Below are positions 9,575-25,830 of a stretch of 64,000 nt of DNA, piece after piece. The stretch's first letter is position 1. The number at the start of each line of letters is the position of its first letter. The notes below the pieces were generated by a model. That model saw only the letters and a program-made list of their open reading frames with translations. It was not told the origin of the DNA and ran no database searches. Source of the stretch: Caulobacter sp. FWC2 (lineage in GTDB: Bacteria > Pseudomonadota > Alphaproteobacteria > Caulobacterales > Caulobacteraceae); the NCBI RefSeq assembly GCF_002742625.1, contig NZ_PEBF01000001.1, positions 2,046,001-2,110,000 on the forward strand, in the 5' to 3' direction. A program made the translations under genes and the position numbers.

Positions 9575-9586
9575 TGGTATAGTCCA
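9575..9586. promoter_or_regulatory. GntR/HutC-type operator (TGGTATAGTCCA)
   Basis: The 12-mer sits in a longer inverted repeat, TTTGGTATAGTCCAAA at 9573-9588. It matches the 19550-19561 site at eleven of twelve positions and lies about 250 bases upstream of the receptor start. Confidence 0.6.
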
Positions 9587-9799
9587 AATTGCGAGGATTG
9601 GTGCGGCCCGGACGGTCTTTCGGGTCCGCCGCCTCTTAGCCGGCCTACAAGGTCAGCCGATCGATCCAGACGCAGACACCCAACCCCTGGTGTCGTATCC
9701 GCGAACGTCGTCATCCGGATAAGCGCTCCCTCCGAGCAAATTCCCGCGCCGAAGCCGGCCACTGTCACGCTGATGTCGCCACAGCTGTTTAAAGCGCTC

Positions 9800-9811
9800 T
9801 GGTCCATACCA
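9800..9811. promoter_or_regulatory. GntR/HutC-type operator (TGGTCCATACCA)
   Basis: Extends to a 5-base-arm palindrome CTGGT-CCAT-ACCAG at 9799-9812. It lies 21 bases before the receptor ATG, just upstream of its ribosome site, a position that would block transcription or initiation when bound. Confidence 0.68.
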
Positions 9812-9832
9812 GTTGGGGCAGGGGAACCACTC

Positions 9833-12632
9833 ATGTCGATTCGATATCCCGTTCGAGCCGCAGGCCCGAACCTGAAGAGCCTTTTGCTGGCGACCGTTGC
9901 GGCGCTGGCCGTCGGCGCCCATTCATCGGCCGCTTTCGCGCAACAGACCGCCAGTGAGCCGGCCGCCGCGGACACGGTCGACGCGGTTGTCGTCACCGGC
10001 TTCCGTAAATCGCTGAGCGACGCGCGCGCCATCAAGCGAGACTCGGTCATCCAGAAGGACGCCATCGTCGCCGAGGACATGGCGAAGTTTTCGGAGCTGA
10101 ACCTGGCCGAGTCGCTGCAGCGCCTGCCGGGCGTGCAGATCAGCCGCGAGGCCGGCGAAGGTCGCCGCATCTCGCTGCGGGGCCTGGGTCCCGATTTCGC
10201 GCGCGTGCAGCTGAACGGCATGGAAGTGCTGGGCAATGTCGACTCGGCGCAGGACAGCCGCGGCCAGCGCTCGCGCGACCGCGCCTTCGACTTCAATATC
10301 TTCGCCTCGGAGCTGTTCTCCAAGGTGGAAGTCGAGAAGACCTTTGAGGCGGCCCAGAACGAAGGCGGCATGGCCGGCACGGTCGGGCTGTTCACCGGCA
10401 AGCCGTTCGACTACGCCCCCGGCGCCAAGGGCGCGATCTCGGTCAAGGCTGGCACCAACCAGTATACCAAGGACACCCAGCCGCGCGTCGCCGGCCTGTT
10501 CAGCTACAACTGGACAACAAGTTCGGCGTGGCGGTTTCGGTCGCCTACAGCAAGCGCGAGACCACCGAGCAGGGCCACAACACCTATAACTACGACAAGC
10601 TCAGCGCCGCAGACATGCGCAAGCTGGTCACCAACGGCCTGGACATCTCGCACCTGAGCGCCGCCCAGCAGGCCAAGTTCCTGTCCGGCGACCTCTATAT
10701 CGCCGACGGCAACCGCATCTCGTCCTGGAACTCCAAGGCCGAGCGTCTGGGCCTGACCGGCGCCCTGCAGTGGAAGCCCGTGGACAATCTGCTGCTGACG
10801 CTGGACGTCCTGCACGGCGAGTTCACCACCCACCGCGACGAGTATCACCTGGCTACGCGTCCGCTGGGCTCGGGCACGAAGTCGTTCGCGTTCGACACCC
10901 CGGCCGGCGGCGTGTGGCCGTCGCAGTTCCAGAAGGGCTCGGTGCTCAACAACCTGGCGTGGGACAGCAGCAACTACGTCACCATGACCGATGTCACGGG
11001 CACGACCTTCGGCAGCGAGCATCGTCGGTCGCTGAACGAAAACCGCTTCAACCAGGTCGCGCTGACCGGCAAGTGGGACCTGTCCGATCGCTTCTCGATC
11101 GATGGTCACGTCGGCTACGAGAAGTCGACCTACAAGACCCCCTATGACGACAAGCTCTATATGCGCGCCAAGGGCAACATGATCGCCAACTACGGCGCTT
11201 ACGGCCAATCGGCGACGTTCTCCTATCCGAACTTCGACGCCACCAACGCGGCCAACTACGCGCTGGATTCCTTCTACTATCGCGGCTTCAACAACCAGTC
11301 GGAACTGAAGGAAGGCGTACTGAACGCCAAGTATGAGCTGAACGACACGTGGACCCTGCGCGCTGGCTTGGCCTACCACAAGTTCACGCAAGGCGGCCGG
11401 GACCTGTTCTATGACGACAACGTCAACGGAACCCGGTCCAAGATGCGCGGCCAGTCGGTCGCGGGCGTGACCTCGGTGTTCACCAACGCCTTCGGCTCGT
11501 GGCTGGTCGGCGACTACGACAAGACCTTCGCCAAGTACAACGAGTACCACCGCTTCGGTCCTAACAAGGACGGCACGGGCGGCGCGCTGCAGGACATCGA
11601 GAACGTCTACGAAACCTCGGAAGCGACCGTGTCCGAGTATGTGCAGGCGGACTGGGACAGCGAGCTTTTCGGCAAGCGCTTCCGCGGCAATGTCGGCCTG
11701 CGCGGCTATCAGACGACACCCACGGCACCGGCTGGATCCAGGGCGACAGCTACGCCTATCTGGGCACGACGGACGTGAAGGGCAGCTATGACGGCGTGCT
11801 GCCGGCCATGAACTCGGTTCTGGAGCTCACGCCGCAGGTGATGGTGCGCTTCTCCGCCACGCAAAACCTCAACCGTCCGGGTCTGGGCTCGATGGCGGCC
11901 AAGGGCAGCGCGTTCCAGTCCGACAGCGGCGACATCACGGCCTCGCGCGGTAACCCGAACCTGAAACCCTACAAGGACAGCACGCTGGACCTGGCGGCGG
12001 AATACTACTTCGGCCAGGACGGGTTGCTCTCGGCGAGCGTGTTCCACAAGAGCCTGAAGAACTTCATCGGCACGCAAACGCTCGAGAACGTGCCCTTCAG
12101 CCAGACGGGCGTGCCCTACAGCACGATCCCGGGCGCGACGGCGACTTCGATCGTCAAAGAGTTCGAGATGCCGATCAATATCGCCGGTACGAAGCAGCTG
12201 ACCGGCGTCGAACTGGCCGCGCAGGGCCAGTTCTCGTTCCTGCCGGCGCCGTTCGACAAGCTGGGCGCGGTGGTCAACTACACCTATGTGGACGCCGACG
12301 AGGCGCTCACCGGCATCTCCAACACCAGCTATAACGCCACGCTCTACTACGAAACCGAGCGCTGGGGCCTGCGCAGCTCCTTGAGCCATCGCAACAAGTG
12401 GTTCACCGGCCACAGCGACAGCCTGATGAGCGCCAGCACGCGCGGGTTCGAGGGATCCACCTATGTGGACGCCTCGGCCTTCCTGAACGTATCGAGCGCG
12501 CTGCAGCTCACGCTGAACGCGATCAACCTGACGAACCAGAAGGACACCCAGTTCTGGGGTCAGAACGAGTATCTCTATAACCAGACCCAGAGCGGCGCGA
12601 CCTATATGGTCGGTCTTCGCTACAAGTTCTAA
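9833..12632 (+). pseudogene. TonB-dependent receptor with two single-base frameshifts
   Basis: An outer-membrane TonB-dependent receptor in three pieces: 9833-10510, about 10511-11715 and about 11716-12632, each in a different frame. Start ATG 9833 follows GGGGAA; a signal peptide ends AAFAQ, then DAVVVTGFRKSL and the plug signature NLAESLQRLPGVQISRE. Adding one base near 10510 (AAC-TGGAC reading as AAC-CTGGAC) and one near 11715 (ACG-ACACC reading as ACG-GACACC) rejoins the frames into a 933-residue receptor with the normal C-terminus ending GLRYKF. Codon use and conservation look intact outside the two points. It is either a recent pseudogene or contains two sequencing errors; both defects shorten a two-base run, which makes an assembly fault realistic. 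It heads the sulfotransferase/AspH operon and carries operators of the phosphonate-type regulon. Confidence 0.85.
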
Positions 12633-12644
12633 GACGACTATACT

Positions 12645-12656
12645 TGGTCAATACCG
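12645..12656. promoter_or_regulatory. Weak GntR/HutC-type operator (TGGTCAATACCG)
   Basis: Eleven of the twelve bases fit a TGGT-N4-ACCA layout (last base G instead of A). It lies between the receptor stop at 12632 and the sulfotransferase start at 12700, so it could give the sulfotransferase operon its own regulated promoter. Confidence 0.45.
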
Positions 12657-12699
12657 CGCCCCGACCCGCCTTCCCGGTGGGGAGGGGCGCCCCCTTTGC

Positions 12700-13350
12700 G
12701 TGGGTCCGAACGTGATTGTCTCCCATCGCCATCGCTTCATCTTCGCTGCGGTGCCCAAGACCGGCACCCACTCGGTGCGGCGCGCCCTGCGCGAACAGCT
12801 CGGCGACGAGGATGTCGAACAGGTCGGCCTGTTCCTCAACAAGCGCTTCCCCTGGCAGGACCTAGCCGAGATCCAGCATGGCCATCTGTCGCTGGAGCAG
12901 GTCAGGCCGCATCTGGGCGAGGACGCCTTCGGCGGCTATTTCAAGTTCGCCTTCGTCCGCAACCCGTTCGACCGCTTCGTGTCCTACTGCGCCTTCATGC
13001 TGCGCGGCGGCGATGTCTTCCAGCAGCGTCCGCGCGATGTGATGCGCCACTTTCTGTTCGCCCAGCCGCCGGAGCAGCACATCCTGTTCAAGCCGCAGGC
13101 CTCGCTGCTGGTCGGCGACGACGGCGCGACCCTGCTGACCGACGCGATCGGCCGGGTCGAGGATATGCAGGCCTCCTACGACGCCATCTGCGCCCGCATC
13201 GGCATTCCCTCCCAGCCGCTTGAGCACGTCAACGGCAGCCAGCACGGCGATTATCGCCAATACTACGATCAGGCCCTGATCGACGGCGTCGCCGCGCGCT
13301 ACGCCCAGGATCTGGAGCTGTTCGGCTATACCTTCGAAGGCATGCGATGA
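12700..13350 (+). CDS. Sulfotransferase family protein
   Basis: A 216-residue PAPS-dependent sulfotransferase-fold protein. The 5'-phosphosulfate loop is VPKTGTHS at residues 18-25 and the 3'-phosphate-binding segment is FVRNPFDRF around residues 85-93. The GTG start at 12700 follows GGGGAGGGG; a second GTG at 12712 is possible. There is no signal peptide, so it acts in the cytoplasm on an unknown acceptor. Its stop overlaps the next ATG by four bases, which makes it the first gene of a coupled four-gene set with two AspH-type oxygenases and a second sulfotransferase. The small size matches the sulfotransferase family 2 group, which also contains carbohydrate sulfotransferases. Confidence 0.82.
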   Translation: MGPNVIVSHRHRFIFAAVPKTGTHSVRRALREQLGDEDVEQVGLFLNKRFPWQDLAEIQHGHLSLEQVRPHLGEDAFGGYFKFAFVRNPFDRFVSYCAFMLRGGDVFQQRPRDVMRHFLFAQPPEQHILFKPQASLLVGDDGATLLTDAIGRVEDMQASYDAICARIGIPSQPLEHVNGSQHGDYRQYYDQALIDGVAARYAQDLELFGYTFEGMR

Positions 13351-13967
13351 GCGCCATGCCGGCCGCCAATCCGCGCAAGACGACGACGGTTCGCCAGCTC
13401 GGACCGGTCGACATCGTCGCGCTGCGAGACGCCGTGCTGGCGATCCCCGAGGACGTCTGGGCGGCGGAGAACGCCGGCAAGCCGAACCGGTTCGAGGCGC
13501 TGGGCGCGACCCGCCACATCGTCTTCCGCTTCATCGACAGCCCGCGCGACTGGCGCGGATCGCACGATCGTCCGGCCTGGGCTCCATGGCGCGATCTGCT
13601 GGAGCCTGTGCTCGCCCAGGCGGTGAAAGACTACGGCTATGGGCGAGGCGTGTTTCCGCGGGTGATGCTGGCCCGCATGCCGCCGGGCGGGGTGATCCAC
13701 CCGCATATCGACGCCAATCCCGCCGCGAAGTGGCCGCACAAGATCCATGTGCCGCTGACGACCAATCCCGGCGTGGTGTCATTCTTCGCCGGCGAAGAAC
13801 GCCATTTCCCCGTGGGCGAGGCGGTGGAGGTCGACAATCTCGGCCCACACTGGGTGCGCAACGACGGCGACACCGACCGCATCCACCTGATCTTCGAATA
13901 CTATGCCGCCGACCAGCCGGATCCTGACTGGCTGGCGCCGTTCCTGGCGGCGAGCGGGGCGCGGTGA
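13347..13967 (+). CDS. Aspartyl/asparaginyl beta-hydroxylase-domain protein (first copy)
   Basis: A 206-residue Fe(II)/2-oxoglutarate oxygenase of the AspH fold. The metal triad is visible as H120-x-D122 (in IHPHID) and H180 (in RIHLIFEYY). The stretch KIHVPLTTNPGVVSF and the VRNDGDTDRIHL ending are typical of the family. AspH enzymes hydroxylate Asp/Asn side chains in proteins, and bacterial relatives also act on free or peptide-bound substrates. It overlaps the sulfotransferase upstream and the TPR-sulfotransferase downstream by four bases each, which implies stoichiometric expression. The substrate is unknown; adjacency to a TonB receptor suggests a receptor, peptide or ligand modification. 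Confidence 0.85.
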   Translation: MSAMPAANPRKTTTVRQLGPVDIVALRDAVLAIPEDVWAAENAGKPNRFEALGATRHIVFRFIDSPRDWRGSHDRPAWAPWRDLLEPVLAQAVKDYGYGRGVFPRVMLARMPPGGVIHPHIDANPAAKWPHKIHVPLTTNPGVVSFFAGEERHFPVGEAVEVDNLGPHWVRNDGDTDRIHLIFEYYAADQPDPDWLAPFLAASGAR

Positions 13968-15865
13968 CGGACCGCGACGCCTTGCTGCGCGAAGCCCAGG
14001 ACCTGCGCGCTAGCCGGCGCGTCCCGGACGCCCTGGCCGCGCTGGCGCGGCTGGAGGCGCTGGACCCCCGGTTCAGCCGTCTCCACCAGGAGCGAGGTCA
14101 CTGCCATATCCTGCTGCGCGCGGGGCCGGCGGCGATCGCGGCGCTGCAGGAGGCCGTGCGCCTGAACCCGAGCCTGCCGGCCAGTTGGGACATGCTGGAG
14201 CAGCTCTATCGGATGCAGGGCGACACCGCTCAGGCGGCCGTGGCGGGCCAGCATCTGGCGATCCTCAAGCAGCTGCCGCCGGCGGTGGTGATGGCCAGCA
14301 GCCTGCTGGCCGATGGCGACCTGGAGCCGGCGGAGGCGGTCCTGCGCGACTATCTGCGCCAGGATCATCTCAATGTCGGCGCGCTGCGCCTGCTCGCGCG
14401 GATCCGCCAGGAGCGCGGCGATCTCGCCGAGGCCGAGGCGCTGCTGGAGCCGGTGGTCGAGCGCGCGCCGGACTACCACGCCGCCCGCTTCGACTACGGG
14501 ATGGTGCTTTTGCAGCGGCAGAAGCCGGCCCAAGCGCGGCAGGAGGCCGAGCGCCTGCTGCGAGACGATCCAGACAACCGCGACTATCTCAAGCAGTACG
14601 GCGCGGCCTGCGTCGCCCTGGGCGACCACGAGCCGGTGATCGATCTCTATGCGCGGCTGCTGGACGGTCTGCCCCCGACGGGTCCGGAAGTCGCCGACCT
14701 GCGCCTGTGGCGCGCCAACGCCCTGAAGATCACCGGCCGGTCAGCAGAGGCCATCGCCGACTACCAGGCCTCGCTGGCGGCGCGGCCCGACAACGGCGTG
14801 GCCTGGTTCAGTCTCGCCAACCTCAAGACCTATCGCTTCACCGACGACGAGGTGGCGCGGATGGACGCCCTGGAGGCCCGGAACGACCTTCAGGACATGG
14901 ACCGCGTCTATCTCGGCTTCGCGATGGGCAAGGCGCTGGAGGATCGTGGCGAGTACGACGCATCCTGGCGCGCCTACGCTCGCGGAAATGCGGTGCGCCG
15001 CGGCCTCGGTCGCTGGCGGCCGGAGGTGGCGGAGGCTTACGCGGCTCGGCTGAAGCAGGTCTTCACCGCCGAGGTCTTCGCCGAACGCGCCGGCTGGGGC
15101 GCGGACGATCCGGCCCCGATCTTCGTCCTGGGCCTGCCGCGTTCGGGATCGACCCTGATCGAACAGATCCTAGCCTCCCATTCCCAGGTCGAGGGCACGC
15201 AGGAGCTGACCGAGATCGGCCGCTATTCGGGCGAACTCTGCGGTCGCGATCCGGACTGCGGCCTACCGCTAGAGCCCGAGGCGCTGCTGAACCTGACAGC
15301 GGAAGAGGCGAGGGCGCTGGGCGAGCGTTTCCTGGCCGAGACCCGCACATATCGACGGCTGGGCCGGACGTTCTTCATCGACAAGATGCCGAACAACTTC
15401 TGGCACATCGGTCTGATCCACCTGATCCTGCCGCGCGCGACGATCCTCGACGTCCGGCGCGAACCGATGGCCTGTGGCTTTTCCAACCTCAAGCAGCTGT
15501 TCGGCACGACCAACCAGGAATTCACCTACGGGGTCGACGATGTCGCCCGCTATTACCGGACCTATCTTGAGGTCATGCGGCACTGGGACAAGGTGCTGCC
15601 GGGACGGGTGCTGAGGGTCTCGTACGAGGACGTGGTCGACGATCTCGAAGGCGGCGTGCGGCGGATGCTGCGCCATGCGGGGCTGCCCTTCGAGCCGGCC
15701 TGCCTGACTTTCCACGAAACGCACCGCAGCGTGCGCACGCCCAGTTCCGAGCAGGTGCGCCAGCCCCTTGGCCGGGAGGGGCTGACCCAATGGCGGAACT
15801 ACGCGCCGTGGCTTGCGCCACTACGCGATGCGCTGGGCGACGCCTTGACCGGCTACAAGGACTGA
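13964..15865 (+). CDS. TPR-repeat sulfotransferase (tyrosylprotein-sulfotransferase-like)
   Basis: A 633-residue two-domain protein beginning at a GTG (GTGA overlap with the gene before). Residues 1 to about 370 are tetratricopeptide-like helical repeats (for example AVRLNPSLPASWDMLEQLYR, AEALLEPVVERAPDYHAARF), which usually bind a protein partner. The C-terminal third is a sulfotransferase: PAPS loop LPRSGST at residues 391-397, acceptor-side DKMPNNFWHIG, and the 3'-phosphate motif around RREP at 498-501. This TPR plus sulfotransferase layout is widespread in alphaproteobacteria and related to protein-tyrosine sulfotransferases; no signal peptide is visible. Coupled to the AspH genes on both sides. 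Confidence 0.87.
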   Translation: MTDRDALLREAQDLRASRRVPDALAALARLEALDPRFSRLHQERGHCHILLRAGPAAIAALQEAVRLNPSLPASWDMLEQLYRMQGDTAQAAVAGQHLAILKQLPPAVVMASSLLADGDLEPAEAVLRDYLRQDHLNVGALRLLARIRQERGDLAEAEALLEPVVERAPDYHAARFDYGMVLLQRQKPAQARQEAERLLRDDPDNRDYLKQYGAACVALGDHEPVIDLYARLLDGLPPTGPEVADLRLWRANALKITGRSAEAIADYQASLAARPDNGVAWFSLANLKTYRFTDDEVARMDALEARNDLQDMDRVYLGFAMGKALEDRGEYDASWRAYARGNAVRRGLGRWRPEVAEAYAARLKQVFTAEVFAERAGWGADDPAPIFVLGLPRSGSTLIEQILASHSQVEGTQELTEIGRYSGELCGRDPDCGLPLEPEALLNLTAEEARALGERFLAETRTYRRLGRTFFIDKMPNNFWHIGLIHLILPRATILDVRREPMACGFSNLKQLFGTTNQEFTYGVDDVARYYRTYLEVMRHWDKVLPGRVLRVSYEDVVDDLEGGVRRMLRHAGLPFEPACLTFHETHRSVRTPSSEQVRQPLGREGLTQWRNYAPWLAPLRDALGDALTGYKD

Positions 15866-15868
15866 CCG

Positions 15869-16807
15869 ATGCGGCTCTCGCGCCCCTTCTTCCAGCTTCC
15901 CGTGCTCTTCGACGTGGCCCGCCTTCAGGCCGAGGTCGCGGCTTTGCCGAGCGAGGCCTGGGTCCCTCACCCGGATCGCCTGCCCGGCAACAGCGCCGCT
16001 CGGTTGATCAGCGTTGGCGGGGCCGAGACGGACGCCGTCCACGGCCAGATGCTGCCGACGCGCTGGCTGGAGAGCATGCCCTATCTGCTGCAGGTGCTGG
16101 CGGGATTCGGTGTCGTCTGGAGCCGCTCACGGCTAATGCGGCTGGCGCCCGGCGCGGGCGTGCCCGAGCACGCCGACATCAACTACCATTGGCACACGCG
16201 GGTGCGCCTGCACGTCCCGGTCTTCACCCAGCCGGCGGTGCGGTTCCATTGCGACGGAGAGGCCGTGCACATGGCCGCCGGCGAGGCCTGGATCTTCGAC
16301 AACTGGCGGCGCCACCACGTCGAGAACAACGCCGACGCCGACCGCATCCACCTGGTCGCCGACACCACCGGCACGGCGGCGTTCTGGCGGCTCGCCTGCG
16401 GACCGACGCCGCCGCGCGCCGAGTGGAGGACGGTGACCTGGGAGCCGGGCGCGTCTCCGGATCTTCTCACCGAGGACGACCAACGCTCACCGGTGATGCC
16501 CGCCGCCGAGGTGCAATGGCTGATCGACGACCTGCGCGCTGAGCTGGCGGCGGCCGTCGACACCGCCGAGGCCGGGGTCCGCATCGCGCGCTTTGGCAAG
16601 CTGCTGGAGAGCTTCGTGTTCGACTGGCGTCAGCTGTGCGCGTTGCACGGCGTCAGCGGGCGGGGACGACCCGACTTCCAACGCCTCGCCGTCGCCGTCC
16701 GCAAGGCCGCCGAGCCGCTCGCCGAGGGGCTGGTCATGCGCACCAACGACGCCAGCGCGCTGCTGGTGCTGGAGAAACGCGTGCTGCAGCACCTCGTTGC
16801 GGACTAG
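15869..16807 (+). CDS. Aspartyl/asparaginyl beta-hydroxylase-domain protein (second copy)
   Basis: A 312-residue protein three bases after the TPR-sulfotransferase. The N-terminal two thirds are an AspH-type Fe(II)/2-oxoglutarate oxygenase with H101-x-D103 (in PEHADINYHWHTRVRLH) and H161 (in ADRIHLVAD). The C-terminal 100 residues are a helical extension not seen in the first copy, of unknown role. The two AspH genes are clearly diverged, so they probably act on different positions or substrates rather than being a recent duplication. The stop codon overlaps, tail to tail, that of the HD-domain gene on the other strand, so nothing is shared between the two operons here. Confidence 0.84.
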   Translation: MRLSRPFFQLPVLFDVARLQAEVAALPSEAWVPHPDRLPGNSAARLISVGGAETDAVHGQMLPTRWLESMPYLLQVLAGFGVVWSRSRLMRLAPGAGVPEHADINYHWHTRVRLHVPVFTQPAVRFHCDGEAVHMAAGEAWIFDNWRRHHVENNADADRIHLVADTTGTAAFWRLACGPTPPRAEWRTVTWEPGASPDLLTEDDQRSPVMPAAEVQWLIDDLRAELAAAVDTAEAGVRIARFGKLLESFVFDWRQLCALHGVSGRGRPDFQRLAVAVRKAAEPLAEGLVMRTNDASALLVLEKRVLQHLVAD

Positions 16808-17379
16808 AGCCGACCTTCGCGATCGATCAGGTCGCGGAGAAGGTCGTGATAGGTTTCGAAGCCCGCCACCTCGGCGTCCGGGGACTTGCCGGCCTCATCG
16901 TAGCCGCGCAGCCGCAGAGCGGTCTGGGCAGCCGGATCGGCCAGGAAGTCCTCGATCTCGGCAGGCGACATCGGTCCGCCTTGCAAGGCCAGGCTCTGCA
17001 GCGAAGCGGGGCTGAGGCGCTGATGGTAAGCCGGATCCACCGTGACCCGATAGCGCTTGGCCGCCACGTGCAGGCGGATCGGCTCAGTGACGCCGGGGCC
17101 GAAGGCGCGGGCCAGATAGCCGGCGCTGATGTGTTCGTGGCGGGTGTCGATGCCCAGGTCGGCGGCGTTCTCGCCGAGCTTCTGCATCATGTGGCCGACG
17201 TCGTGCAGCAAAGCGGCGGCGACCAGTTCCGGCGGCGCGCCGTCCAGCTTGGCGTGGTGCGCGGTCTGTACCGCGTGCTCCATCTGGCTGACGCCCTCGC
17301 CGTAGTGCAGGCCGCCCAGGCGCGTGAAAAGGTCGGTCAGTTCGGCCACGTAAGCGTCGGCCGCGGGACGAGAAGTCAT
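16804..17379 (-). CDS. HD-domain mixed-valent di-iron oxygenase, PhnZ/TmpB-like
   Basis: A 191-residue HD-domain protein of the group associated with phosphonate breakdown. By eye the ligand pattern matches PhnZ well: H35, H59-D60 (in LLHDVGH), H83, H104 and D161, with K108 also present and a Y26/E28 pair in the N-terminal loop resembling the Tyr/Glu gate of that family. PhnZ cleaves 2-amino-1-hydroxyethylphosphonate to glycine and phosphate; TmpB does the trimethylated analogue, giving glycine betaine. Neither usual hydroxylating partner (PhnY, TmpA) is visible nearby, so the substrate is undecided. It lies 22 bases after the phospholipase C gene, on the same strand, with a weak ribosome site. 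The regulon context strongly supports a phosphonate role. Confidence 0.82.
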   Translation of the reverse strand: MTSRPAADAYVAELTDLFTRLGGLHYGEGVSQMEHAVQTAHHAKLDGAPPELVAAALLHDVGHMMQKLGENAADLGIDTRHEHISAGYLARAFGPGVTEPIRLHVAAKRYRVTVDPAYHQRLSPASLQSLALQGGPMSPAEIEDFLADPAAQTALRLRGYDEAGKSPDAEVAGFETYHDLLRDLIDREGRL

Positions 17380-17401
17380 CGAATATCCGTGTACTGAAGG
17401 C

Positions 17402-19525
17402 TTAGAGTCGCATCCGGCCGATGCCAGGATCGGTGCGGCTTGCGCGGCCGGTTTCCAGGTGCCCGGCCAGACGTTGGGTGAAGCTGGAATCGTCGGCCAG
17501 GGTCAGGGTCAGGTCGTACCAATGGGCGCTGCCGCGCAGGTCCCAGACCGAGCGGAGGATTTCCTTGGGCTTCAGCGTCAGGGTCTCGCGGGCTTCGCCC
17601 TCGGCCAGCGGATACTCCTCCGCCATGCGGAGAGTCGCCTGGCCGGCGCCGTGCAGACTGACGACCAGGCGCGCGCGGGCGTCGGCGGCGACCGTGACGA
17701 TCGGCTGGGGCTTGGACGTATCGCCCGTGAAGCGGCGGTAGAAGCCGTTCGGACCGTGGACCGTCAGGTCGTAGGGCCCCGGCGCTCGGCCCGCCTTGTT
17801 CCAGTGACCCGCGGCGTGTTTCTGACCCGCCGCCAGGGTGAAGCGCCAGGGCCCGTCGCGGTCGGTGTTGTCGAACACCTGGAATACCGCCCCGGCCCGG
17901 CCGGCGTTGATCAGGTCGATCCACAGCGCGCCATCCGCGACGCGTGCATCGGCCGACAGGACGTAGGGCAGGGGACGCGCGCCGCGCTGCGGGCCGTCCT
18001 GCACCGAGGGGCTCTGCTTGACGGGGATTTTCAGGCTCGCCGCAGCCTTGGAGCGGGCCACGCGCTGCATGTAGTCGGCGGTGGCGGGCAGGGTCAGCGC
18101 CGTCCAGTCCTGGTTCGGCGTGGCGAAGTCGAAGGCCGAGGTCAGGTCGCCGCAGACCGCGCGGCGCCAGTCGCTGATATTGTCCTCGCGCACCCCAAAG
18201 CGTCTCTCCAGGAACTTGAGCGTCGAGGTGTGGTCGAACACCTCCGAGCAGACGAAGCCGCCACGGCTCCAGGGCGAGACGATGATAGCCGGCACGCGGA
18301 TGCCCAGGCCCAGGGGATAGGCGCCCTTGTTGGCACCCTCGGCGTCAGGTCCATAGGTCTTGGCCTCGCCGGCGACCGACACCGAACTCCAGCCTTGCTC
18401 GGACGTCAGCGGCGGCATCGGCGGCTGCATGTGGTCGTAGAAGCCGCCGGCCTCGTCGTAGTTGACGATGAAGACCGTCTTGGCGAACACCTCGGGGTTG
18501 TCGACCAGGGCCTTGATCAGTTCGGCGCAGACGTGCTCGCCTTTCGACGGCTCAGCCTGAGGGTGTTCGGACAGGTCGGCGGCGGTGACGATCCAAGAGA
18601 CCTGCGGCAGGCGGTCGGCGGCGACGTCAGCGCGGAAGGCCTCGACCAGTTGCTGGCCGTCCGAGCGCTTGCGATCGGCGCCGGACTTGTCTTCGCTGAC
18701 CCAGGAACGGCCGCGCGCATAGAGTTCGGAGTCCTTGGCGCAGGGTCGGAAGGGCTTGAATACCGACAGGATGTTGTCGCCGAAATTGTCGTACTCTTGA
18801 TAGACCTTCCAGCTGACGCCGGCCGCCTGGAGGCGCTCGGCGTAGGTCGTCCAGTCGTGCGGCCCGTTGGCCATGACCTTGTCTTCGGCCATGTCGGCGC
18901 TGGGCGTCTCGTCCTCGCCGTAGTTGCTCATCTCCGGATCGCCGCCGACCTTGCCGCCGCCGTTGCAGCCTGTCCAAAGGTGCAGGCGGTTCGGATAGGT
19001 CTGGGTCAGGGTCGAGCAGTGATAGGCGTCGCAGACCGTGAAGGCGCTGGCCAGGGCGTGGTAGAACGGCAGGTCCGAGGCCTTGTAGTAGACCATCCGC
19101 TTGTGCAGTTCGCCCGAGTGGCCCCACTGGTCGTAGCGGCCGCCGTTGACGATGGTGATCGCCGCCTGGTGGCCCTGGTCCGAGCCGTCGACGGTGTAGG
19201 CGTTGGTGGCCGAGGCGTCGCCGTGGAACGGCGCGACGAAGCCGTCGGGGTGCTCCTTGCTCGGCTGGCGCCAGACCGAGGCCCCGCCCGGCAGGCGCTG
19301 CGGGCGCGGATCGCCCAGGCCGCGCACGCCGTTCAGCGCTCCGAAATAGTGATCGAACGAGCGGTTTTCCTGCATGAAGATCACGACGTGCTCGACGTCC
19401 ATGATCGTGCCGGTGCGATAGCGCGCAGGAATGGCCATGGCCTTGGCCACCGTGGCCGGCAGCAGGCCGACAGCCGCGCTGGCCGTGGCGGCGGCGCGCA
19501 GGAAAGAGCGGCGGTCGGTCGGCAT
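17402..19525 (-). CDS. Phosphocholine-type phospholipase C (exported)
   Basis: A 707-residue phosphoesterase of the acid-phosphatase-like phospholipase C family, which removes phosphorylated head groups such as phosphocholine from lipids in the periplasm or outside. The start is ATG 19525 behind GGAGATGGGCC; upstream codons to 19591 are in frame but unlikely. A twin-arginine signal (TDRRSFLRAAATASA) comes first, then VEHVVIFMQENRSFDHYFG, which supplies the catalytic/metal Glu-Asn-Arg segment. Later come FIVNYDEAGGFYDH and IIVSPWSRGGFVCSEVFDHTS, followed by two C-terminal beta domains of the family. Length and layout are those of full haemolytic/non-haemolytic PLC. It shares an operon with the HD oxygenase and has an operator just upstream, so the released head group may feed phosphonate or phosphate metabolism. 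Confidence 0.9.
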   Translation of the reverse strand: MPTDRRSFLRAAATASAAVGLLPATVAKAMAIPARYRTGTIMDVEHVVIFMQENRSFDHYFGALNGVRGLGDPRPQRLPGGASVWRQPSKEHPDGFVAPFHGDASATNAYTVDGSDQGHQAAITIVNGGRYDQWGHSGELHKRMVYYKASDLPFYHALASAFTVCDAYHCSTLTQTYPNRLHLWTGCNGGGKVGGDPEMSNYGEDETPSADMAEDKVMANGPHDWTTYAERLQAAGVSWKVYQEYDNFGDNILSVFKPFRPCAKDSELYARGRSWVSEDKSGADRKRSDGQQLVEAFRADVAADRLPQVSWIVTAADLSEHPQAEPSKGEHVCAELIKALVDNPEVFAKTVFIVNYDEAGGFYDHMQPPMPPLTSEQGWSSVSVAGEAKTYGPDAEGANKGAYPLGLGIRVPAIIVSPWSRGGFVCSEVFDHTSTLKFLERRFGVREDNISDWRRAVCGDLTSAFDFATPNQDWTALTLPATADYMQRVARSKAAASLKIPVKQSPSVQDGPQRGARPLPYVLSADARVADGALWIDLINAGRAGAVFQVFDNTDRDGPWRFTLAAGQKHAAGHWNKAGRAPGPYDLTVHGPNGFYRRFTGDTSKPQPIVTVAADARARLVVSLHGAGQATLRMAEEYPLAEGEARETLTLKPKEILRSVWDLRGSAHWYDLTLTLADDSSFTQRLAGHLETGRASRTDPGIGRMRL

Positions 19526-19549
19526 CGGCCCATCTCCGAAATTCAGCTT

Positions 19550-19561
19550 TGGTATAGACCA
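19550..19561. promoter_or_regulatory. GntR/HutC-type operator (TGGTATAGACCA)
   Basis: Lies 25 bases upstream of the phospholipase C start. The 12-mer is, as I recall, identical to the consensus reported for the mycobacterial GntR/HutC regulator PhnF, and it resembles the dre sites of DasR/NagR. It is the best single argument that the regulator at 19710 controls this operon. Confidence 0.72.
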
Positions 19562-19624
19562 GATAGTCGAGGGCTTCGGCGAAACTTTCATGACACCGTG
19601 ACGAGTGGCGGGTGTGCTTGCGTC

Positions 19625-19636
19625 TGGTCCAATCCA
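19625..19636. promoter_or_regulatory. GntR/HutC-type operator before the regulator (TGGTCCAATCCA)
   Basis: Imperfect palindrome, extended to CTGGT-CCAA-TCCAG (19624-19637), 74 bases upstream of the GntR start. Suggests autoregulation. One half-site base deviates from the others. Confidence 0.5.
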
Positions 19637-19709
19637 GTTCCTTGACCCTGGGGGAGCGCCCTCCCATCCTCGTCGCTTGGCGGGATTCGACCGCTGGCCA
19701 GGTCGCCCG

Positions 19710-20429
19710 ATGCAGCAGCCCGAAAGCCTTCAGTATATCGGCGTGCGCGACGAGATCGCCGCGCGCATCGCTGGCGGCGAGTTCAAGCCGGGCGAACGCC
19801 TGCCGTCCGAGCGCCAGATGCAGATTGGCGGCGGCGTCGCCCGCGGAACCGTCCGCGAAGCCCTGTTCCAGCTAGAGGCCGAGGGGGTCGTCTACCGCAA
19901 GGAGCGTAGCGGCTGGTACGTTTCGCCGCCGCCGGTGGTGTACGACCCGACTCGCTGGGAAGGCTTCATGTCGTATGTCGAGGCTCAGGGGCGTCAGCCC
20001 TCGACCGAGACCCTCAGCAAGATCGAGATCGCCTGCGACGGCGTGCTGGCCGAGATCTTCTCGCGCCCGGTCGGGGCGCCCATGTACTGGATCCGCCGTC
20101 GGCGTTCGGTGGATGGTCGAGCGGTGCTGTTCGAGAGCATCATCGTCGACGCGTCTCTGACGCCGGGCCTGATCGAGCACGACCTGAACGGGTCGCTGAC
20201 CAGCGTGCTAAAGTCGGTCTATGGCATTGGCGTCGCGCGCAACAAGGTCGATATGCGCCCCTGCGCCCTGACTGGAGAAGAGGCCGAGGCCCTGAGGGTC
20301 AAGTCCGGCCTGCCGGGTCTGAATCTGGTTCGGGTCTGCTATGACGCGCAAGGCCGGGTGGTCGAGTTCGACCGCGAGCACTGGCGTCATGACGCCGTGA
20401 AGATCAGCGTCGACATCCGCGTTCGTTAA
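19710..20429 (+). CDS. GntR/HutC-family regulator with UTRA domain
   Basis: A 239-residue regulator. Residues 1-75 form the GntR winged helix (YIGVRDEIAARIAGGEFKPGERLPSERQM, then ARGTVREALFQLEAEGVVYRKERSGWYV). Residues from about 95 form a UTRA ligand domain ending IRVR. Length is usual for the HutC group. ATG 19710 is chosen because the GntR domain begins there; the frame is open back to 19605. It sits between a phospholipase operon and a phosphonate operon and has a TGGT-N4-type palindrome upstream of itself and of each neighbouring unit. HutC-group proteins such as PhnF, DasR and NagR bind this motif type, so it is most likely the local repressor, released by an organophosphorus ligand or intermediate. 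Confidence 0.88.
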   Translation: MQQPESLQYIGVRDEIAARIAGGEFKPGERLPSERQMQIGGGVARGTVREALFQLEAEGVVYRKERSGWYVSPPPVVYDPTRWEGFMSYVEAQGRQPSTETLSKIEIACDGVLAEIFSRPVGAPMYWIRRRRSVDGRAVLFESIIVDASLTPGLIEHDLNGSLTSVLKSVYGIGVARNKVDMRPCALTGEEAEALRVKSGLPGLNLVRVCYDAQGRVVEFDREHWRHDAVKISVDIRVR

Positions 20430-20462
20430 CCGTGCGCGGCCGTCACCGAGGTGACATGTAAT

Positions 20463-20474
20463 TGGTCTAGACCA
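20463..20474. promoter_or_regulatory. GntR/HutC-type operator (TGGTCTAGACCA)
   Basis: A perfect 12-base palindrome, TTGGTCTAGACCAA at 20462-20475 when extended, 25 bases before the transporter ATG. This is the most symmetrical copy in the set and matches the DasR-type dre core. Confidence 0.72.
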
Positions 20475-20499
20475 AAACGCTCCATTGAGGGGCGTTCCC

Positions 20500-21831
20500 A
20501 TGACGACTGGTCCGAAGCGCTGGCTGGAGCGGGCCAACCCGCTGGTCTTCACCCTGTTCGCGGGGCTGGCCGGCTTCTGCGCCTATTTCTCGATGTACGC
20601 CTTCCGCAAGCCTTTCGCGGCGGCGACGTTCGGGGCGGTGGAGGGCTGGCATTTCGCGGTCGACTACAAGATCGCCCTGGTCCTGGCCCAGGTCGCGGGT
20701 TACGCCGCTTCCAAGATGATCGGGGTCAAGGTGATCTCCGAGATCGCGCCGCGCCATCGCGGCGTCGCCATTCTGGGCCTGATCGGCATTTCGTGGGTGG
20801 CGCTGCTGGCCTTCGCGGTCACGCCCGCGCCGTGGAACGTCGCGGCGCTGTTTTTGAACGGCCTTCCGCTGGGCATGATCTGGGGCCTGGTGTTCGGCTT
20901 CATGGAAGGCCGCCGCACGTCTGAAGTGCTGGGGGCCATTCTCTGCGCCAGCTTCATCCTGTCGTCGGGCGTGGTGAAGTCCGTCGGCAAGTGGCTGATG
21001 GTCGATCTCCACGTCTCGCCGTTCTGGATGCCGGCCGCCACCGGCGCGATCTTCATGCCGCTACTGGCCGTCTCGGTCTGGGCGCTGGTCCAGATGCCGC
21101 CGCCCAACGCCGCCGACGAGGCCGCTCGCGTCCGTCGCCAGCCGATGGACCTGGTCCAGCGCCGCGCCTTCCTGGCCACCTACGCGCCCGGCATCGTGCT
21201 GCTGGTGCTGGCCTATATCCTACTGACGGCCCTGCGTGACTTCCGCGACAACTTCGCCGCCGAGATCTGGACGGCCCTGGGCTTCGGCGAGGCCTCGGGC
21301 GTGTTCACCGCCAGCGAGCTGCCGGTGGCGGTCGTCTCCCTGGCCGTGATGGGCGCGGTGATGCTGGTGCGCGACAACCTGCGGGCCCTGCTGGTCATGC
21401 ATGGCGTGATCCTGGCCGGCTTCCTGGTGCTGGGCGGCTCGACCCTGGCGTTCCAGGCCCATATGCTGACGCCCTTGACTTGGATGATCCTGACCGGCGC
21501 GGGGCTCTACATGGCCTATACCCCGTTCAACGCAATGCTGTTCGACCGCATGATCGCCTTCAGCGGCCGGGTCGGCACGGCGGGCTTCCTGATCTATGTG
21601 GCCGACGCCTCGGGCTATCTGGGCAGCGTCGCTCTGCTGGTCTGGCGCAACTTCGCCATGGTCGATCTCGACTGGCTGAGCTTCTTCATCAACAGCGCCT
21701 ACGCCACCAGCGCAGTGGGCGCCGTCTGTACGCTGTTCGCAGGCCTCTACTTCCTGCGCCAGCGCGTCAGGTCCGACGGTGGGCAGGGCGCGGCGACCTT
21801 CCAGGCTGCCAGCCAGCCGGTCGAGTCGTGA
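20500..21831 (+). CDS. MFS-like membrane transporter, DUF5690-type, probable phosphonate importer
   Basis: A 443-residue integral membrane protein with about twelve hydrophobic segments. It starts at ATG 20500 (an in-frame TTG lies at 20485). The N-terminal segment FCAYFSMYAFRKPFAAATF resembles the DUF5690 family and more distantly the organophosphate:phosphate antiporters (UhpT/GlpT), which keep an Arg-Lys pair in a similar place. It is the first gene of a coupled operon with an FAD oxidoreductase and phosphonoacetaldehyde hydrolase (stop overlaps the next GTG), and an operator precedes it. I infer uptake of 2-aminoethylphosphonate or an N-substituted relative across the inner membrane; the family name is from memory. 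Confidence 0.78.
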   Translation: MTTGPKRWLERANPLVFTLFAGLAGFCAYFSMYAFRKPFAAATFGAVEGWHFAVDYKIALVLAQVAGYAASKMIGVKVISEIAPRHRGVAILGLIGISWVALLAFAVTPAPWNVAALFLNGLPLGMIWGLVFGFMEGRRTSEVLGAILCASFILSSGVVKSVGKWLMVDLHVSPFWMPAATGAIFMPLLAVSVWALVQMPPPNAADEAARVRRQPMDLVQRRAFLATYAPGIVLLVLAYILLTALRDFRDNFAAEIWTALGFGEASGVFTASELPVAVVSLAVMGAVMLVRDNLRALLVMHGVILAGFLVLGGSTLAFQAHMLTPLTWMILTGAGLYMAYTPFNAMLFDRMIAFSGRVGTAGFLIYVADASGYLGSVALLVWRNFAMVDLDWLSFFINSAYATSAVGAVCTLFAGLYFLRQRVRSDGGQGAATFQAASQPVES

Positions 21832-22970
21832 CCGTGGAGCGCACCTTCGATCTTGCCGTGGTCGGCGCCGGCATCGTGGGCTTGGCCCATGCCCTGGCCG
21901 CCGCCCGGCTGGGCAAGCGTGTAGTGGTCGTTGACCGCGACGCCCAGGCCAATGGCGCCTCCGTGCGTAACTTCGGCTTCGTGACGGTGACGGGCCAGGC
22001 GCGGGGCGAGGTCTGGCGGCGCGCGCGGCGCTCGGCGCGGGTGTGGGACGAGATCGCCGGTCCGGCCGGGATCGAGGTCGTTCAACGGGGGCTGACCATG
22101 GTCGCCCGCCGCCCCGAGGCCAGGGCCGTGCTGGAAGCCTTCCTCGAAACCGAGATGGCCGAAGGCTGCGCCTGGCGCGACGCCGTCGATCTCGGCGATC
22201 GTTTGCCAGGCCAGGGCGAGGTGCTGGGAGCGCTGACGAGTTCGGTCGATCTGCGGGTGGAATCCCGCACCGCCATACCGCGCCTGGCCGCGTGGCTGGA
22301 AGCCGCGCATGGCGTGACCTTCCTGCGCGGCGTCGCCGTGCAGGGAGTCGAGACCGGTCGCCTCGAGACGTCCGCCGGCGCCGTTTCCGCCGAGACCGTC
22401 GTGGTCTGCCCCGGCGATGACCTGATCACCCTGTTCCCCGACGCCTTCGCCCAGGCCGAGGTGACACGCTGCAAGCTGCAGATGCTGCGCCTGGCCGCGC
22501 CGGGCTGGCGACTTCCCGGGCCGGTGATGTCGGACCTCGGCCTGGTTCGCTACCTCGGCTATGCGGCCCTGCCGGAGGCCGCCGCCCTCCGCGTGCGACT
22601 TGAGGCCGAGCAGCCGGCGCATCTGGAGCACGGCGTCCACCTGATCGTGGCGCAGAGCGCCGACGGCTCGCTGGTGGTCGGCGACAGCCACCACTATGCC
22701 GCCACACCCGATCCCTTCGCCCGCGACGATGTCGACGCCCTGATCCTCGACGAGTTCGCCAAGGTGTTCGGCCAAGCGCCGCCGCCGGTGCTGGAGCGTT
22801 GGACCGGCACCTACGCCTCGGCCGCCGGCCACAGCCTCGTCGAGGCTCCGATGCCACGCGTGCGTCTGGTGACCGTGACCAGCGGCACCGGCGCTTCGAC
22901 CGCCTTCGGCTTGGCCGAGGACGTGATCGCGGGCCTCTACGACCTTCCGCGCCAAGGAGCCGCCGCATGA
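21828..22970 (+). CDS. FAD-dependent oxidoreductase of phosphonate operons (PbfC-like)
   Basis: A 380-residue DAO-type flavoenzyme starting at GTG 21828, overlapping the transporter stop by four bases. The dinucleotide fold is clear (DLAVVGAGIVGLAHALAAA, then VVVVDRD at the second strand), followed by NGASVRNFGFV, and the C-terminal FAD segment TSGTGASTAFGLAEDV. It matches the phosphonate-associated oxidoreductase group once listed as TIGR03364, for which oxidative deamination of N-substituted or free aminoethylphosphonate to phosphonoacetaldehyde has been described (PbfC). It directly precedes phosphonoacetaldehyde hydrolase, and no PhnW transaminase is present, so it is the likely source of that intermediate here. 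Confidence 0.83.
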   Translation: MTVERTFDLAVVGAGIVGLAHALAAARLGKRVVVVDRDAQANGASVRNFGFVTVTGQARGEVWRRARRSARVWDEIAGPAGIEVVQRGLTMVARRPEARAVLEAFLETEMAEGCAWRDAVDLGDRLPGQGEVLGALTSSVDLRVESRTAIPRLAAWLEAAHGVTFLRGVAVQGVETGRLETSAGAVSAETVVVCPGDDLITLFPDAFAQAEVTRCKLQMLRLAAPGWRLPGPVMSDLGLVRYLGYAALPEAAALRVRLEAEQPAHLEHGVHLIVAQSADGSLVVGDSHHYAATPDPFARDDVDALILDEFAKVFGQAPPPVLERWTGTYASAAGHSLVEAPMPRVRLVTVTSGTGASTAFGLAEDVIAGLYDLPRQGAAA

Positions 22971-23776
22971 GCCCGATTCAAGCCATCGTCTTCGACTGGG
23001 CCGGCGCCATGATCGACTTCGGCTGCCGGGCGCCGGTCCTGGCCCTGAGCGAGGTGTTCGCCGAGGCGGGGGTCTTGATCTCGGAGGCCGAGGCTCGCGC
23101 CGACATGGGCAGGGCCAAGCGCGATCACGTGCGGGCCTTGCTGGCCAAGCCGCGCGTCGCCACCCTCTGGACGGAGCGCCACGCCGCGGCGTCGACGGAG
23201 GCGGATGTCGACCGTCTGCACGACGACGTCGAACCGAAGATGCGCGCCGCCGCCCGCGACTGCGCCCGGCTGATTCCCGGTGCGGCTGAACTCGTCGCCG
23301 ACCTGCGGGCGCGAGGCGTCAAGATCGGCTCCACGACCGGCTATACCCGCCCGATGATGGTCGACATCCTGCCGCTGGCGGCGGAGCAGGGCTACGCGCC
23401 GGACGTCGTCGTCTGTGCCGGCGAGACGGCGGCAGGCCGGCCTTCGCCCCTGATGATGTGGAAGGCCCTGGTCGAGCTGGGCGCCTGGCCGGCCCGGGCC
23501 TGCGTCAAGGTCGACGATGCGGTCGTCGGCATCGGCGAGGGGCTGGAAGTCGGCGCCTGGACGGTGGGCCTGTCGGCCTCGGGCAATGGTGTCGGACTGT
23601 CGCGCGAGGACCTCGCCCTGCTGCCAGAAGCCGAGCGCAGCGCCCGGATCGAAGCCTCCGCTCAGGCCCTGCGCGACGCCGGCGCGCACTATGTGGTCGA
23701 TAGCGTCGCCGACCTTGGGCCTGTTCTGGCCGAGATCGAGGCGCGGATCGCGCGCGGCGAACGTCCGGCGGCCTGA
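22967..23776 (+). CDS. phnX: Phosphonoacetaldehyde hydrolase (phosphonatase)
   Basis: A 269-residue HAD-superfamily enzyme that splits phosphonoacetaldehyde into acetaldehyde and phosphate. ATG 22967 follows AAGGAG and overlaps the flavoenzyme stop by four bases. D10 and A12 in VFDWAGAMIDFG are the nucleophile and the Ala that replaces the second Asp of ordinary HAD phosphatases. K51 in MGRAKRDHVR is the Schiff-base Lys that marks this family. GSTTGYTRPMM and CVKVDDAVVGIGEG are motifs II/III and the C-terminal signature. The usual Thr after AG (AGT) is Ala here (AGA). Length equals characterised phosphonatases. It ends the operon; the next gene converges on it. Confidence 0.93.
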   Translation: MSPIQAIVFDWAGAMIDFGCRAPVLALSEVFAEAGVLISEAEARADMGRAKRDHVRALLAKPRVATLWTERHAAASTEADVDRLHDDVEPKMRAAARDCARLIPGAAELVADLRARGVKIGSTTGYTRPMMVDILPLAAEQGYAPDVVVCAGETAAGRPSPLMMWKALVELGAWPARACVKVDDAVVGIGEGLEVGAWTVGLSASGNGVGLSREDLALLPEAERSARIEASAQALRDAGAHYVVDSVADLGPVLAEIEARIARGERPAA

Positions 23777-24279: not shown

Positions 24280-25830
24280 TCAGTGCGCGCCCGCGGCTCG
24301 GAGGCGATCACCGAAGGCGCAGGCCGGCGGCAGCTCGACCTTCACCCCGGCGCGCGCCTTGCCTTTCAGCCAGTCGCTGAGGGCCTCGGCGACGGTGTGG
24401 TCCAAGCTGGTGAGGCCCCGTGTGTCCAGCTTCACCCGGCCGTTGTTCGGCGCGCCGTCGAGGACCTTGGCGATCTTCGGCAGCTGGATGAACGTGGCTG
24501 CGCCCTCCAGTCGGATCTCGCTCTCGTCGGGACCCAGTTCGTGCTGAGAGACGCTGAGGCGCATCTTCTTCAGGTTCGGGATCAGCTCCAGCAGCGTCAT
24601 GCCCATGCCGACCAGCACGCCGGTCAGGAGGTCCGTCGCCACAACCATCACGAAGGTCGCCGCCCAGATCATTGCCGGCAGCAGACCGTAGCGGGCGAAC
24701 AGGTGACGGACGTGCTGCAGGCTGACCAGCTTCCAGCCCGTGACGACCAGCACGCCGGCGAGGGCGGCGCTGGGCGCCATGCGAAGCAGCCAGGGCAGCA
24801 GGGCGACGAAGGCCAGGATCCAGACGCCATGCAGGATCGCCGACATGCGGGTCATGGCGCCGGCCTGGACGTTGGCCGAACTGCGCACGATCACGCCGGT
24901 CATCGGCAGGGCCCCAACGAGGCCGCACAACATGTTGCCCACGCCCTGGGCGCCCAGCTCCTTGTTGTACTTGGTGCGCTCGCCGTCATGCATGCGGTCG
25001 ACGGCGGCGGCTGACAGCAGGGTTTCCGCCGAGGCGATGAAGGCCACCGCGATGGCGGTCACCAGCAGCATCGGATCGGCCATGCGGGCGAAGTCCGCGA
25101 CGCCAGGAATGGCGATCGCCGCGGCGATCGATTCCGGCACGACGATCTTCTGGACGTCCAGACCCAGCACCGTGGCCAGCACGGTGCCGGCGACGACGCC
25201 CAGGAGCGCGCCCGGGACCAGCTTCAGCGCCTTGGGACGGAACTTCTCCCACAGAAGGATCGAGCCGATCGTCACCACGCCGACCGCCAGGGCGGCTTCG
25301 ACCTGGGTCAAGGTCGCGAATTGAACGCCGGCCAGGGCCGACGGAATAGCCGCCAGATTCTGCAGGCCGTGAGCCTTGGGCGAGTCGCCGAACAGGACAT
25401 GGAACTGGCCCGCCACGATCAGCACGCCGATGCCGGCCAGCATGCCGTGCACGACGGCGGGCGAGATGGCGCGGAACCAGTTGCCCAGCTTGGCGGCGCC
25501 GGCGATCAGCTGGATCAGACCGGCGACCACCAGGATCGGGCCCAGCATGGTCAAGCCATGCTTGGCGACGATCTCGAAGACGATGACGGCCAGGCCAGCG
25601 GCGGGGCCGCTCACCTGCAGGGGCGAGCCGGCCAGGGCGCCGACGACGACGCCGCCGATGATGCCGGTGATCAGGCCGCGCTCGGCCGGAACGCCGGAGG
25701 CGACGGCGATGCCCATGCAGAGGGGCATCGCCACCAGGAAGACAACGATCGAGGCGATGAAGTCACGCGACAGGATCGTCGAGAAACCAGGCTTCACACC
25801 CTGGGGAGAGGAGGCGACAGCTTGGGTCAT
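24280..25830 (-). CDS. SulP-family anion transporter (probable bicarbonate)
   Basis: A 516-residue SulP/SLC26-type membrane transporter with about eleven hydrophobic segments (signatures FLVAMPLCMGIAVASG, PLQVSGPAAGLAVIVF, FIASAETLLSAAAVDR). The C-terminal STAS-like region begins near residue 430 (EIRLEGAATFIQLPKI, DTRGLTSLDHTVAEALSDWL). Its start codon overlaps the stop of a beta-carbonic anhydrase by four bases. SulP-carbonic anhydrase pairs are known as bicarbonate or CO2-handling units, so bicarbonate is more likely than sulfate; no sulfate-assimilation gene is nearby. The STAS domain is a usual regulatory element of the family. Confidence 0.9.
   Translation of the reverse strand: MTQAVASSPQGVKPGFSTILSRDFIASIVVFLVAMPLCMGIAVASGVPAERGLITGIIGGVVVGALAGSPLQVSGPAAGLAVIVFEIVAKHGLTMLGPILVVAGLIQLIAGAAKLGNWFRAISPAVVHGMLAGIGVLIVAGQFHVLFGDSPKAHGLQNLAAIPSALAGVQFATLTQVEAALAVGVVTIGSILLWEKFRPKALKLVPGALLGVVAGTVLATVLGLDVQKIVVPESIAAAIAIPGVADFARMADPMLLVTAIAVAFIASAETLLSAAAVDRMHDGERTKYNKELGAQGVGNMLCGLVGALPMTGVIVRSSANVQAGAMTRMSAILHGVWILAFVALLPWLLRMAPSAALAGVLVVTGWKLVSLQHVRHLFARYGLLPAMIWAATFVMVVATDLLTGVLVGMGMTLLELIPNLKKMRLSVSQHELGPDESEIRLEGAATFIQLPKIAKVLDGAPNNGRVKLDTRGLTSLDHTVAEALSDWLKGKARAGVKVELPPACAFGDRLRAAGAH

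Follow-up and report, generated by a model that had tools for sequence, protein, structure and literature searches.

A predicted aminophosphonate acquisition regulon under a PhnR-like HutC-type repressor in Caulobacter sp. FWC2

Control of aminoethylphosphonate (AEP) use has been described for the Pho, Ntr, Cbr and LysR systems in the available parts of two reports (PMC8316502, PMC10574752), and the Salmonella phnVUTSRWX locus, as far as the accessible description of the PhnR family (TIGR03337) goes, likewise places a HutC-type GntR regulator beside AEP uptake genes and phnX, as does the locus considered here. On the enzymatic side, the accessible sections of a further report (PMC10590968) have PbfD enzymes converting N-methyl-AEP and AEP to phosphonoacetaldehyde, PbfD1 annotated as TIGR03364, and pbfD genes outside the D1 group most often accompanied by phnX alone. 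Here we analyse 64,000 nucleotides of Caulobacter sp. FWC2 (contig NZ_PEBF01000001.1, positions 2,046,001 to 2,110,000; hereafter the window, whose own numbering is used for all features unless marked otherwise), in which a GntR-type regulator gene lies near genes for a TonB-dependent receptor, a phospholipase C, an HD protein, a DUF5690 protein, PbfD and PhnX. We propose, with a probability of about 0.72, that these genes belong to an aminophosphonate acquisition regulon governed by a PhnR-like HutC repressor at predicted TGGT-N4-ACCA operators.

The proposed repressor (19710..20429, plus strand) combines a GntR winged helix (PF00392, 60.5 bits) with a UTRA domain (PF07702, 109 bits), the domain pair of the HutC subfamily, in which the first-pass annotation had rightly placed it. 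PhnF, one of the regulators that it named for comparison, is not the closest relative: the best NCBIfam model is PhnR TIGR03337 (234.8 bits), whereas PhnF TIGR02325 scores 75.2 bits (cut-off 156.8), and filing the protein as PhnF was rejected on this ground. Because the TIGR03337 score is itself below the curated cut-off of 296.75, we name the regulator PhnR-like only. The nearest solved structures are YvoA/NagR and DasR. A match to the regulator of at least 59% identity is found in 25 of 199 family genomes, its own included, and the next matches fall below 35% over most of their length.

The pattern TGGTNNNNACCA occurs five times in the window against an expectation of 0.29, and none of 100 shuffles reached this count. 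Three of the exact TGGT-N4-ACCA matches are predicted operators lying close to start codons: TGGTCCATACCA (9800..9811), the proximal receptor operator, 33 bp 5' of the receptor start at 9833; TGGTATAGACCA (19550..19561), 36 bp 5' of the phospholipase C start at 19525 on the minus strand; and TGGTCTAGACCA (20463..20474), 37 bp 5' of the DUF5690 start at 20500. The remaining two, at 4814 and 53119, fall within long open frames. The receptor has a second, distal predicted operator, TGGTATAGTCCA (9575..9586), which carries a single arm mismatch and is spaced 225 bp from the proximal one. The conserved core TGGTMTAKACCA fits the published HutC operator consensus NyGTMTAKACNy (PMC4494728), and the likeness to the DasR core noticed in the first pass is genuine, as the DasR/NagR dre element, A(G/C)TGGTCTAGACCA(G/C)T, has the same core as the operator here. 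A scan for sigma-70 promoters and terminators across 19380-20560 returned no match.

We then compared cluster stretches from 24 regulator-bearing genomes together with the window (rows of less than 45% identity, or with an alignment beginning after residue 60, were excluded), using 25 chosen genomes without the regulator (22 of the same genus, 3 of the same family) as the comparison set. The exact core TGGTMTAKACCA was present within 200 bp 5' of the phospholipase gene in 18/18 usable loci and of the DUF5690 gene in 15/20; in the five misses DUF5690 is the last gene of a phospholipase-PbfD-PhnX-DUF5690 run that has two sites at its head. Among 18 distinct phospholipase promoters the core was 100% identical amid flanks of 39% and 36% identity, and the same pattern was observed for 15 DUF5690 promoters (0.96 in the core versus 0.61 and 0.46 in the flanks) and 8 receptor promoters (0.88 versus 0.37 and 0.41). 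The exact core was found in 24/25 genomes with the regulator (49 places) versus 2/25 without it (2 places, both inside called open reading frames [ORFs]; Fisher p ~1e-10, shared ancestry being ignored). Forty-one of the 49 places are in cluster stretches, one falls on a separate contig, within a phospholipase/HD stretch (G053), and seven are elsewhere, namely two before a phosphodiesterase gene (G096, G121), one before a second phospholipase gene (G170), three in called ORFs and one intergenic. It is by such comparison that the predicted operator and its targets are shown, as is the scarcity of the exact core where the regulator is lacking. The distal receptor site is likewise conserved, as TGGT[AC]TAGTCCA precedes the receptor gene in 10/10 same-genus genomes with the regulator and TGGTATAGTCCA is present in 11/25 genomes with the regulator and 0/25 without it.

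Searches of whole genomes were made with IUPAC patterns in place of a position-weight matrix, and they did not return the motif at background frequency elsewhere, the outcome that the first-pass annotation had named as contrary to its proposal. The window's own genome (5.5 Mb) carries the exact core at 19550 and 20463 only, against ~0.3 occurrences that base composition by itself would predict. With the wider pattern TGGTHYANACCA the number of distinct places in it rises to 11: three at regulon promoters, one before a PAS-kinase ORF and seven in mechanically called ORFs, of which one is covered by no more than a short ORF with larger genes on either side. The PAS-domain kinase ORF (C1:4240943 of the own genome) has TGGTTTAGACCA 57 bp upstream. 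Sites of the TGGTCTATTCCA type were rejected as operators, being frequent in genomes with and without the regulator alike.

A wider sample comprised the best 80 of 91 relatives, which by record title are Caulobacterales, Sphingomonadales, Acetobacteraceae and a few others; since these 80 loci overlap the 25 genomes, the two sets are not independent. Upstream rows below 40% identity, with an alignment beginning after residue 70 or with fewer than 150 bases were excluded. Across 1.23 Mb, 72 exact cores were found in 44/80 loci, and the reversed control was found 0 times. TGGTN4ACCA preceded the receptor gene in 21/24 upstream regions, DUF5690 in 46/61, the HD gene in 17/68, PbfD in 10/45, PhnX in 1/43 and the phospholipase gene in 19/55 overall and 17/19 in the Caulobacterales group, and two other palindrome shapes, taken as a control, were found in 3/482. 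As proposed in the first pass, a single predicted HutC-type operator joins the genes for the receptor, the phospholipase, DUF5690 and C-P cleavage. The pattern was absent upstream of the sulfotransferase ST1 (0/28), the TPR-sulfotransferase (0/27) and AspH2 (0/25), and the sulfotransferase genes are therefore without an operator of their own. The first-pass annotation had listed six palindromes, of which 9800, 19550 and 20463 stand as exact matches and 9575 as a conserved one, whereas its separate operator for the sulfotransferase genes and its operator before the GntR gene are imperfect and unconserved. The former, TGGTCAATACCG (12645..12656), has two mismatches, finds a likeness in 1/13 loci (the window itself) and precedes genes that come after the receptor; the latter, TGGTCCAATCCA (19625..19636), has a two-mismatch likeness in 3/25 loci. 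Both were rejected as operators.

The guess that further copies exist was borne out by a second phospholipase C gene in the own genome and by a phosphodiesterase gene in relatives. The second phospholipase C (C1:4334932, 2.27 Mb away; TIGR03396, 896 bits, cut-off 580.25) has TGGTCTAGTCCA 74 bp upstream and, in a survey that took in 15 of the 25 regulator-bearing genomes and the full set of 25 regulator-less ones, its orthologues (at least 68% identity) showed a site in 6/10 genomes with the regulator and 0/11 without. The secreted-type PF01663 phosphodiesterase occurs in 4/25 genomes with the regulator. In 4/4 TGGTN4ACCA lies ~70-100 bp upstream, twice as an exact core; G131 and G190 carry the gene adjoining the regulator, at the place held by the phospholipase in other genomes.

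The aligned promoters also display a repeat with an 11-bp period 5' of the operator. In the window, PHO-box-like repeats with 10/14 matches to an assumed consensus precede the receptor (9762..9779, plus strand) and DUF5690 (20440..20457, plus strand). At least 10/14 matches were reached upstream of DUF5690 in 27/61 regions (shuffles 1.5%), of the receptor in 11/24 (2.9%), of the phospholipase in 15/55 (1.8%), of the HD gene in 12% of 68 (2.3%) and of PbfD in 7% of 45 (2.7%), and in 0/150 for PhnX, ST1, AspH1, the TPR-sulfotransferase and AspH2. The repeats before DUF5690 and the receptor lie mostly 58-76 bp upstream. Because they stand just 5' of the operators, induction is suggested to need phosphate shortage together with substrate: PhoB would activate and the repressor would block, and the arrangement suggests that these promoters read both signals. 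The C. crescentus PhoB regulon includes TonB receptors, a phospholipase C and a nucleotide pyrophosphatase according to the available part of its description (PMC11208175).

The gene labels of the first pass were correct overall, with two refinements: its "transporter" is a DUF5690 protein (PF18943, a family without an assigned function), and its "HD oxygenase" falls just under the Phn-HD cut-off. DUF5690 (20500..21831, plus strand) models as a major facilitator superfamily (MFS) transporter near the organophosphate carriers: the AlphaFold2 model (pLDDT 85.4) has an MFS fold, and G6PT (SLC37A4) rows rank first in the structure comparison, while its profile found no match among PDB sequences. 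A DUF5690 paralogue of 56% identity (C1:555683-556924 of the own genome) has no PbfD, PhnX or phospholipase gene within the 20 kb fetched, and DUF5690 therefore has other contexts as well. The next gene encodes a PbfD-type FAD oxidoreductase (21828..22970, plus strand; TIGR03364, 408.2 bits, cut-off 285.1) and adjoins that of the phosphonoacetaldehyde hydrolase PhnX (22967..23776, plus strand; TIGR01422, 330.1 bits, cut-off 220), which has solved relatives. On the opposite strand, the phospholipase C (17402..19525, minus strand) is of the phosphocholine-specific type (TIGR03396, 763.4 bits, cut-off 580.25) and has an N-terminal DRRSFL stretch, read from the sequence as a twin-arginine (Tat)-like signal. 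The HD protein (16804..17379, minus strand) narrowly misses the TIGR03276 cut-off (202.6 versus 214.6 bits) but is related in sequence to TmpB (114 bits, the nearest solved structure) and PhnZ (96 bits), and is for these reasons labelled PhnZ/TmpB-like. Its N-terminal Y-x-GE stretch has one residue fewer between Y and GE than in TmpB and PhnZ, possibly reflecting a different substrate lid.

We envisage that the PhnR-like repressor sits on operators ~30-38 bp 5' of the start codons of three window units, namely the operon of the TonB receptor, which has two such operators, that of the exported phospholipase C and the HD protein, and DUF5690-PbfD-PhnX, and that it also governs the second phospholipase C elsewhere in the genome. 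Binding of an aminophosphonate, whether AEP, N-methyl-AEP or a product, to the UTRA domain would bring the repressor off the DNA. The exported phospholipase, or the phosphodiesterase in some relatives, would release head groups, the TonB receptor would let the released product in, and DUF5690 would move it over the inner membrane; oxidation by PbfD would then yield phosphonoacetaldehyde, from which PhnX would free phosphate, and the HD protein may deal with hydroxylated forms. PhoB activity would also be required, so that expression would follow phosphate shortage and substrate together. Binding, repression, the inducer, the transport and lipid substrates and PhoB control are inferred. The substrate class is perhaps a phosphonolipid, and the model is at its boldest where it takes the phosphonate used in nature to be lipid-bound. 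Somewhat short of even odds, we tentatively extend it to a complete phosphonolipid-utilisation system, in which exported phospholipases C, or phosphodiesterases interchangeable with them, would remove aminophosphonate head groups, a dedicated TonB receptor with its sulfotransferase/hydroxylase block would take these in, and DUF5690 would represent a new family of aminophosphonate carriers, with PhoB and a substrate-sensing HutC repressor gating the whole set at shared promoters.

Clusters without the regulator also exist. Eight genomes of the genus g15 that lack it retain the receptor block, the HD gene and DUF5690, either side by side or split between contigs, and PbfD-PhnX is present in the stretches fetched from seven of them; none was seen in that fetched from the eighth (G094). 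Three such loci (L110, L113, L114) were examined gene by gene: all have a DeoR-like gene ahead of the receptor, and two of the three have a LysR gene ahead of the HD gene; the LysR of L110 is nearest to TIGR03339, the AEP-associated LysR family (213.5 bits, cut-off 341). The DeoR-like gene is no simple substitute for the regulator, because it is found in 8/80 wider loci that have the regulator.

Several points weigh against the proposed regulon. The operator and target assignments are predictions from comparative genomics, 36/80 wider loci hold no exact core, and outside the Caulobacterales the phospholipase site occurs in 2/36 loci, so that phospholipase control is predicted here for the Caulobacterales. 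Among same-genus second phospholipases of 78-80% identity, 2/10 are siteless despite the regulator. The exact proximal receptor site, found in 13/19 orthologues with the regulator and 0/8 without, is a confounded contrast, because all eight belong to g15 and g15 genomes with the regulator lack the exact site too (0/5, two of the five holding a one-mismatch distal site); in four of these five, another receptor gene (28-31% identical) lies beside the regulator with TGGTTTACACCA upstream. The DeoR-like gene and the receptor block, too, are found alongside the regulator. The PHO boxes were scored with an assumed consensus against mononucleotide shuffles, and the repeats before the phospholipase are scattered in position and make a weaker case. 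Finally, the phospholipase family takes its name from phosphocholine rather than from phosphonates.

An alternative view is that the system serves general phospholipid scavenging, with phosphocholine or a glycerophospholipid product as the signal and PbfD-PhnX only broadening the diet. Such a role would account for two target phospholipases C of the phosphocholine-specific family and would agree with PhoB governing a phospholipase C and TonB receptors in C. crescentus (PMC11208175, as far as available), but we consider it unlikely, as the regulator is nearest to PhnR, the DUF5690-PbfD-PhnX promoter is the steadier target across orders (46/61 versus 19/55 for the phospholipase) and an AEP-type LysR gene is found in a regulator-less cluster. 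Far less probable is that the regulator senses an amino sugar like DasR/NagR and that the phosphonate genes form a branch of an amino-sugar response: while the operator core is that of dre, and YvoA/NagR and DasR are the nearest solved relatives, the exact core is scarce in these genomes and located at the phosphonate cluster, and PhnR is the best family model. We give least credence of all to palindromes arising by chance or serving another regulator. Operator binding is a prediction, and 7/11 own-genome TGGTHYANACCA places lie inside mechanically called ORFs; on the other hand, conserved cores stand amid diverged flanks, the core tracks the presence of the regulator across genomes, and other palindromes are nearly absent upstream (3/482 regions). 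The overall picture is of a conserved HutC operator system whose site list has been corrected and whose targets have grown in number, with a likely Pho input and a testable role for DUF5690.

The receptor gene itself (9833..12632, plus strand) has two reading-frame changes in the window; close relatives are intact, one showing a TonB barrel and plug, and sequencing error and decay are both candidate causes. Behind it (12700..16807, plus strand) follow genes for a sulfotransferase, an Asp-hydroxylase-like protein, a TPR-sulfotransferase and a second Asp-hydroxylase-like protein (PF03567, PF05118, PF13469, PF05118), a block that is kept together with the receptor in many relatives and is presumably carried on its transcript. 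Elsewhere in the window (24280-26522), a SulP-family transporter gene lies beside a carbonic-anhydrase-like gene, perhaps as a bicarbonate pair, both scoring under their family cut-offs.

To our knowledge no outer-membrane route for aminophosphonates is known, and the regulon proposed here suggests one. It would also connect phosphonate use with exported phospholipases C, offers a possible role for DUF5690 and predicts a two-signal promoter, suggesting how Caulobacter-type bacteria mine phosphonates. New here are the PHO-like repeats by the operators, the MFS model of DUF5690 and the regulator-less clusters, in one of which the LysR gene is of AEP type. The combination of genes and operator was not found in the open-licence literature, a search outside which lie supplements that may hold a regulon table, and DUF5690 was not named in the literature so searched. 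Among described systems, the AEP clusters under the LysR-type AepR (PMC8316502, PMC10574752) resemble this one in making AEP uptake and cleavage depend on the substrate, as far as the available parts show, and differ in having a LysR rather than a HutC regulator, with the words "TonB" and "phospholipase" appearing 0 times in both texts. The hydrolytic PbfD-PhnX route for AEP and N-methyl-AEP (PMC10590968) has the same pairing, likewise without PhnW in the cluster; in the available part of that text the word "regulator" appears 0 times and no links to a phospholipase, receptor or DUF5690 are seen. The organophosphate antiporters GlpT and SLC37 share the MFS fold with the DUF5690 model but, at the level of PDB sequences, no match. 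The Salmonella phnVUTSRWX locus, for whose PhnR no operator was found in the accessible literature, relies in its available description on ABC transport and PhnW, whereas here DUF5690, PbfD, a TonB receptor and phospholipases take part. DasR and NagR, finally, have the HutC fold family in common with the regulator described here, but theirs is an amino-sugar regulon, whereas the predicted operators of Caulobacter sp. FWC2 stand before phosphonate genes.

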